DNA of 62,461 bases from Microbacteriaceae bacterium. Its GTDB lineage: Bacteria; Actinomycetota; Actinomycetes; Actinomycetales; Microbacteriaceae. The DNA is taken from contig JAVECW010000148.1 of the NCBI GenBank assembly GCA_030841285.1, positions 1-62,461 of the forward strand. The letters are read 5' to 3'. Shown here piece after piece: positions 34,959 to 35,066 of this stretch. The position numbers and the translations under genes are program-made. The notes below the pieces were generated by a model that searched no databases, was not told the DNA's origin, and worked only from the letters and a program-made list of their open reading frames with translations. Within the stretch, counting starts at the first letter, position 1. Every line of letters starts with the position of its first letter.

Positions 34959-35002
34959 GGTCTGTGATCTCCTCGCGAGTGGTGGTCAGCCAACGACGAA
35001 CT

Positions 35003-35040
35003 CCGCGACGAGTGAGGCCTCAGATTAGGACTCGTCGCGG
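35003..35040 (-). promoter_or_regulatory. 11-bp perfect hairpin of the leuA leader
   Basis: The 5' arm overlaps the last codons of the leader peptide (CRDES) and the stop lies in the loop. No U-tract follows, so simple transcription termination is not evident. Confidence 0.8.
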
Positions 35041-35066
35041 CAGCTAAGGAGGAGCAGACCGTACAC
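35025..35066 (-). CDS. leu leader peptide (VYGLLLLSCRDES)
   Basis: This is a 13-codon open frame read GTG-TAC-GGT-CTG-CTC-CTC-CTT-AGC-TGC-CGC-GAC-GAG-TCC-TAA. Four consecutive Leu codons are the sensor for charged tRNA-Leu. An extended -10-like motif, TGGTATTCT, ends at 35074, eight bases before the GTG, so the peptide may be translated from a leaderless mRNA. If transcription instead comes from upstream, AGGTGG lies 13 bases from the GTG. Confidence 0.75.
   Translation of the reverse strand: MYGLLLLSCRDES

Follow-up and report, generated by a model that had tools for sequence, protein, structure and literature searches.

The stretch of DNA analysed here (the window; 62,461 nt, from a member of the Microbacteriaceae) harbours on its minus strand the gene for 2-isopropylmalate synthase (leuA) and, directly 5' of it, a leader element (Table 1). 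The leader ORF is the sole ATG- or GTG-initiated ORF of 8–24 codons with LLLL on either strand of the entire window, and the extended -10-like motif preceding it would yield a leaderless leader transcript. A large ORF, the product of which contains a phosphatidylglycerol lysyltransferase C-terminal domain, stops 28 bases ahead of the leader start, with the -10-like motif located inside this gap. No match to the element was obtained with Rfam 15 between 34900 and 35150, up to an E-value of 5; two tRNAs were the only Rfam matches in the window.

Table 1 Features of the leuA leader element and of related elements (positions in the window unless another locus is named)
Feature	Position	Strand	Basis or remark
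ORF with phosphatidylglycerol lysyltransferase C-terminal domain	35095..37692	-	
Extended -10-like motif TGGTATTCT	35074..35082	-	sequence; 7 bases 5' of leader GTG
Leader ORF VYGLLLLSCRDES (13 codons; GTG 35066-35064, TAA 35027-35025)	35025..35066	-	sequence; leader in 170/170 leuA upstream regions examined
P0 base stem, 5' strand, codons GGT-CTG-CTC-CTC	35049..35060	-	complementarity; fold; swap tests
P0 base stem, 3' strand, leuA SD region: GAGGAG (34974-34969), bulge ATCA (34968-34965), CAGACC (34964-34959)	34959..34974	-	complementarity; fold; swap tests
Perfect 11-bp hairpin, 5' arm CCGCGACGAGT	35030..35040	-	sequence
Perfect 11-bp hairpin, 3' arm ACTCGTCGCGG	35003..35013	-	sequence
P1 hairpin, 5' arm CCGCGACGAG, encoding the leader end	35031..35040	-	two-sided changes; contrasts 14:1
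P1 hairpin, 3' arm CTCGTCGCGG	35003..35012	-	two-sided changes; contrasts 14:1
Candidate pseudoknot P2, loop strand AGGCC	35016..35020	-	family-wide swap test
Candidate pseudoknot P2, downstream strand GGCTG	34987..34991	-	family-wide swap test
leuA, 2-isopropylmalate synthase, 592 aa; regulated gene in the proposed model	33180..34958	-	NCBIfam PRK03739.1 and TIGR00970 above cut-off
Second LEU-type element of the window's genome, before leuC-leuD (L231; G000:C78)	1681-1800		covariance model R1
Elements of second leuA-like loci (L281-L285, L288, L315, L316, L321, L322, L324, L326)			more diverged element; leaders e.g. MQRTLLLRRHGGA
leuB-type elements in other actinobacterial families (L290, L298, L306, L310, L311, L312, L317, L318, L319, L325, L329)			

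As the earlier note on this DNA had described, the leader with its run of four Leu codons ends inside a perfect 11-bp hairpin, and the codons GGT-CTG-CTC-CTC are complementary to the Shine-Dalgarno (SD) region of leuA over 6 + 6 bp with a 4-base bulge. The stop codon is located in the hairpin loop. The base stem formed by these codons (P0) is part of the minimum-energy fold (-60.2 kcal/mol, z -2.2; 5 of 200 shuffles equally stable). Its pairing energy of -17.0 kcal/mol was reached in 40 of 5000 trials with shuffled SD regions and in 57 of 5000 with 32-mers drawn at random from the window; judged on the window alone, the pairing is thus only moderately unusual by chance. The reality of the element rests instead on conservation, because the leader is present in all 170 leuA upstream regions examined. 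Two further pairings were found by eye: a potential pseudoknot (P2) between the hairpin loop and a stretch 5' of the SD, comprising in the window only 4 bp (GGCC with GGCU), and an alternative hairpin, in which the 5' arm of P1 can pair over 8 bp with a second TTCGTCG copy.

Judging by its architecture, the element in the window is the LEU element of leuA, published in 2005, and not a new one. Leifsonia xyli likewise belongs to the Microbacteriaceae. According to the text of Seliverstov et al. (2005; PMC1262725), whose genomes included Leifsonia xyli, the LEU element is located upstream of leuA in most Actinobacteria; its leader ORF contains consecutive Leu codons, which form a base stem with the leuA SD, and the authors further describe a pseudoknot as well as an alternative hairpin. 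The pairing of Leu run and SD was therefore already published in 2005, which the earlier note did not recognise; the pseudoknot and the copy before leuC described below were missed there altogether. New here are its presence at a wider set of genes and the testing of its base stem.

The leuA set (n = 170) was composed of upstream regions from 90 of 191 genomes with leuA in the window's family, taken as Microbacteriaceae from its best named relatives (30 best matches plus 60 hand-picked, mostly one per genus) and of 80 named loci (the best 80 of 591), which include some Kineococcus, Cellulomonas-type and Arthrobacter-type records; allowing for near-duplicates, it holds 167 distinct cores. Conservation of the Leu run among relatives was evident throughout, since each of the 170 leaders possesses at least three Leu codons in the run, one of them with Ile within it. 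The motif TGnTAnnnT was located 6–8 nt 5' of the leader start in 142 of the 170 regions as compared to none of 1321 other ATG or GTG codons in the same regions, the former figure being somewhat favoured by the choice of the leader start partly from motif spacing. The leuA leader ORF is probably leaderless, as the earlier note had suggested and as is reported for the homologue of Streptomyces lividans (PMC8079986).

Base pairing was assessed by swap tests, in which the strand pair of each genome (own) was set against pairs exchanged between genomes (swapped), and disjoint genome pairs served as contrasts (ratios below give own to swapped pairing). The tests covered 163 of the 167 distinct cores, with L102, L104, L107 and L109 left out of those on P1, P2 and the controls, and the contrasts the 105 regions whose leuA was long enough. 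For P0, pairing of the run was stronger with the SD of the same genome than with exchanged SDs (-12.6 vs -11.4 kcal/mol; 0 of 5000 permutations, 163 regions), in line with the covariation of the arms for which the earlier note had requested a test. Contrasts of nearest pairs were borderline (29:17, p 0.05); by leuA distance they amounted to 34:16 at 0.15 or more, 39:13 at 0.18 and 36:9 at 0.20, where the wide-distance contrasts share deep branches and render p-values optimistic. Contrasts for P1 favoured own pairing by 14:1. Two-sided changes were detected at 3 of the 10 pairs of P1 in an alignment of 119 of 121 references (L089 and L106 omitted due to long insertions); because of these changes, the conserved SCRDES end of the peptide appears to be owed at least in part to RNA pairing.

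The evidence for P2 is mixed, and this pseudoknot is proposed less firmly. Its swap test favoured own pairing (z -6.2, 0 of 2000 permutations), and contrasts were null for nearest pairs (22:18), followed by 25:16 at a distance of 0.15, 35:11 at 0.18 and 31:10 at 0.20. Contiguous Watson-Crick helices of at least 5 pairs were formed by 29 % of own, 12 % of swapped and 14 % of shuffled strands; with G-U pairs allowed, the respective values were 51, 43 and 47 %, such that P2 stands out clearly only when G-U pairs are disregarded. Covariant versions of P2 include AAGACC/GGUCUU (L100), CUAAGCC/GGCUUAG (L086) and UAGCCGGU/GCCGGCUG (L105). Six control strand pairs displayed no consistent excess of own over swapped pairing in the contrasts; one of them, loop strand with SD, reached z -3.0 in the plain permutation and no such excess in the contrasts. 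The alternative hairpin likewise received no support for own over swapped pairing (contrasts 13:10 to 10:13). An inner extension of the hairpin (P1b; stop-proximal bases with AGGCC), which would rival P2, was dropped (z -0.1, contrasts 19:16).

A covariance model (R1) built from the element core matched in 273 of 296 genomes of the class (E-value of 0.01 or less), 14 of the 296 being from the family of the window. The window's own genome harbours a second LEU-type element (89 bits; leuA copy, 91 bits) before leuC and leuD, both of which were confirmed with NCBIfam. The leader of this copy encodes VRFGLLLLSCRDES and has a leaderless-type start with TGATAAACT 5' of its GTG; visual inspection shows a potential 10-base pairing, counting G-U, between UUCUUCUUAG and CUGAGGAGAA in the ribosome site of leuC. 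Among 75 family genomes surveyed, 71 contained an R1 match and 72 contained leuC, and a match was located at most 400 bp upstream of leuC in 50 of these 72 (49 at most 110 bp), a search with filters that lose weak matches. Half of the 22 family genomes with no match at leuC (11) have a size of 2.1 Mb or less. A leader was found at 32 of 42 leuC loci, several of the remainder matching R1 nonetheless; leaving out L254 and L280, 30 elements were compared, 26 of them with a leuA partner. In the 30 elements, own combinations of leuC run and SD were more stable than swapped combinations (-9.9 vs -8.8 kcal/mol; 13 of 5000 permutations), and all 30 form 8 to 10 of the 10 hairpin pairs when the best offset is taken. 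Exchange of the strands between leuA and leuC inside 26 genomes weakly favoured own pairing (15:9 with 2 ties; sign p 0.15, Wilcoxon 0.018).

Elements were also detected before second leuA-like genes at 12 loci, six of these genes recognized by BLAST (49–56 % identity) and six by N-terminal sequence judged by eye, and before leuB at 11 loci assigned by N-terminal sequence, two of which were checked with NCBIfam. The leaders of the leuB copies contain Val, Ile and Leu codons (e.g., MRSVFVLIDCRGEA, MRFVLILRCRDGA). By eye, the leuB ribosome site seems to follow the leader codons, CUCAUC facing GAUGAG at L290 (1500-1620) and UCUUCG facing CGAAGA in the element region of L317. Located between leuB and its leuB-type element is a small ORF (L290, 1617-1724), which ends in a QESMDRRDQGG-like motif and recurs at L298, L306, L312, L317, L319 and L325; Pfam gives only a sub-threshold match for it, and it may represent a conserved microprotein of the leuB operon. 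Five weak R1 matches (L286, L287, L323, L327 and L328), having neither a leader nor a leucine gene at the right place, were rejected as chance. Among the titles and abstract openings listed by a search of the open-licence literature, none reported a LEU element before leuC or leuB.

The release of the SD by a stalled ribosome, as envisaged in the earlier note, agrees with folding predictions. At ample Leu-tRNA, the translating ribosome would pass the Leu codons and halt at the stop codon inside the hairpin, leaving the run free to pair with the SD in its wake and keeping translation of leuA low. At scarce Leu-tRNA, it would pause on the Leu codons and cover the anti-SD, and leuA translation would be raised. 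Folding was modelled from the leader start codon without pseudoknots, with a ribosome footprint of 31 nt masked. The mean probability of the SD being unpaired (n = 163) was 0.20 in the free RNA and 0.27 with the ribosome at the stop codon, compared to 0.49, 0.50, 0.48 and 0.40 with Leu1 to Leu4, respectively, in the A site. The corresponding values for the window were 0.17 and 0.17 as against 0.53, 0.53, 0.52 and 0.34. In 134 of 163 elements, the unpaired probability of the SD was higher when Leu2 occupied the A site than when the ribosome was at the stop codon; the reverse held in 21. Stalling on the Leu codons is thus predicted to free the SD, while a ribosome at the stop codon is not.

Alternatively, the leader could govern premature transcription termination, intrinsic or Rho-dependent, 5' of leuA. 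Such transcriptional attenuation is the class to which reviews on Corynebacterium glutamicum assign leuL (PMC8709942), and terminators occur in related ilvB leaders (PMC1262725). It appears unlikely for the element analysed here: as already stated in the earlier note, no U-tract follows the 11-bp hairpin in the window, so that this feature of classical terminators is absent, and UUUU follows P1 in only 3 of 163 elements. Furthermore, S. lividans leuL1 is reported to be without a typical terminator (PMC8079986), and the conserved base stem aims at the SD.

The main objection to stall-released masking of the SD is the mutant work on Streptomyces coelicolor as cited in PMC1262725. Mutations in the leuA leader (Craster 1999) are described there as having some effect, inconsistent with classical attenuation, and another sentence of the same paper states that regulation was not influenced by mutation of the Leu codons. 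Mutants of this type may fail to separate sensing from masking, because changes in the codons also alter the base stem. The same data would suit a binding site for a regulatory protein, in which the RNA fold is the signal and leader translation matters little; orthologues of Mycobacterium leprae ML1624 were proposed in 2005 as the regulator on the basis of their phylogenetic pattern (PMC1262725). This possibility also agrees with how strongly the hairpin and its pairing are conserved, and is nevertheless judged decidedly unlikely, in view of an ORF, a Leu run and a leaderless-type start that are all kept in 170 of 170 regions and of leuB copies that carry Val, Ile and Leu codons instead, none of which a pure protein site needs.

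The codons of the run are strongly biased. Leu2 is CTC or CTT in 159 and Leu3 in 165 of the 170 leaders, and Leu4 is CTT in 166 of 170 leuA and in 28 of 30 leuC leaders, vs 2.9 % of the Leu codons inside leuA (CTG 57 %, CTC 35 %; first 1500 bases of 105 genes, 4062 Leu codons). Anticodons GAG, CAG, TAG and CAA of tRNA-Leu were detected with ARAGORN in nine stretches of the window's genome, and tRNA-Leu(GAG) would be expected to read CTC as well as CTT. When the runs were compared with random synonymous codons, the own run paired better with the SD in 105 of 163 cases, as compared to 20 of 163 at a control segment; the window's own run was no better than random synonymous codons (-11.0 vs -11.2). 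The notion that the bias reflects sensing by tRNA-Leu(GAG) alone, with SD complementarity arising incidentally where CTN codons face purine-rich sites, fits the near-exclusive use of one isoacceptor's codons at Leu2 to Leu4 and the result for the window's own codons, but is very improbable, as tRNA identity cannot account for CTT over CTC at Leu4, own pairing exceeds swapped pairing in leuA and leuC elements alike, and the bias improves pairing with the SD but not with the control segment. The Leu run would rather unite sensor and lock in one sequence, because CTC and CTT suit tRNA-Leu(GAG) and also pair with the SD.

Taken as a whole, the LEU element is probably best explained as a leaderless Leu-run leader, the codons of which mask the leuA SD and which is released by stalling, although this reading is held with some reserve. 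The comparison across genomes strengthens the interpretation advanced in the earlier note, the mechanism itself being one that we infer. An even chance is given to the broader proposal that Actinomycetes share a leucine regulon controlled at translation, in which the LEU element, as one leaderless architecture, serves leuA, second leuA-like genes, leuC(D) and leuB, with codons acting as anti-SD, tuned by tRNA-Leu(GAG) and the SD; at leuB, where the hairpin persists, a change to Val, Ile and Leu codons would retune it to other branched-chain amino acids.

The mode of action of the LEU element was left open in 2005 (PMC1262725), and in leucine-producing C. glutamicum the leader and promoter were replaced without that mechanism being known, as indicated in PMC8709942. 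If the codons are the anti-SD, synonymous changes of the Leu codons combined with matching changes of the SD can part sensing from masking, a separation which the earlier codon mutations could not make. The copies at leuC and leuB are replicates provided by nature, and with them the leader of one gene would become a circuit spanning the pathway.

Several known systems resemble the proposed one in part. In erm-type translational attenuators, stalling on the leader uncovers an otherwise masked SD, as proposed here; they differ in that a drug triggers the stall and the anti-SD is not known to be built of the regulatory codons. Leaderless poly-cysteine sORFs in mycobacteria, rich in the regulated amino acid and associated with cysteine operons, were reportedly described by Canestrari in 2020, a study listed among the references of PMC13236596; their codons are not known to pair with an SD. 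Leaders of leuA in Corynebacterium are mentioned in PMC4046766, PMC5784534, PMC3890552 and PMC8709942; leuL has four consecutive Leu codons before leuA, as observed here, differs in the flanking residues and is referred to as (transcriptional) attenuation (PMC4046766, PMC5784534, PMC8709942). Leader leuL1 of S. lividans encodes MRFGLLLLSCRGEGL, near-identical to VYGLLLLSCRDES of the window, and is annotated as an attenuator, SD pairing being undiscussed in the relevant passages of PMC8079986. The closest counterpart is the LEU element itself (PMC1262725), which shares the Leu-run ORF before leuA, the base stem of run and SD, the hairpin between them and, less firmly, the candidate pseudoknot. 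Its authors favoured a protein-binding site and, in the passages concerned, name only leuA and one transposase (PMC1262725), whereas the leader start described here looks leaderless and the element precedes leuC, second leuA-like genes and leuB as well.
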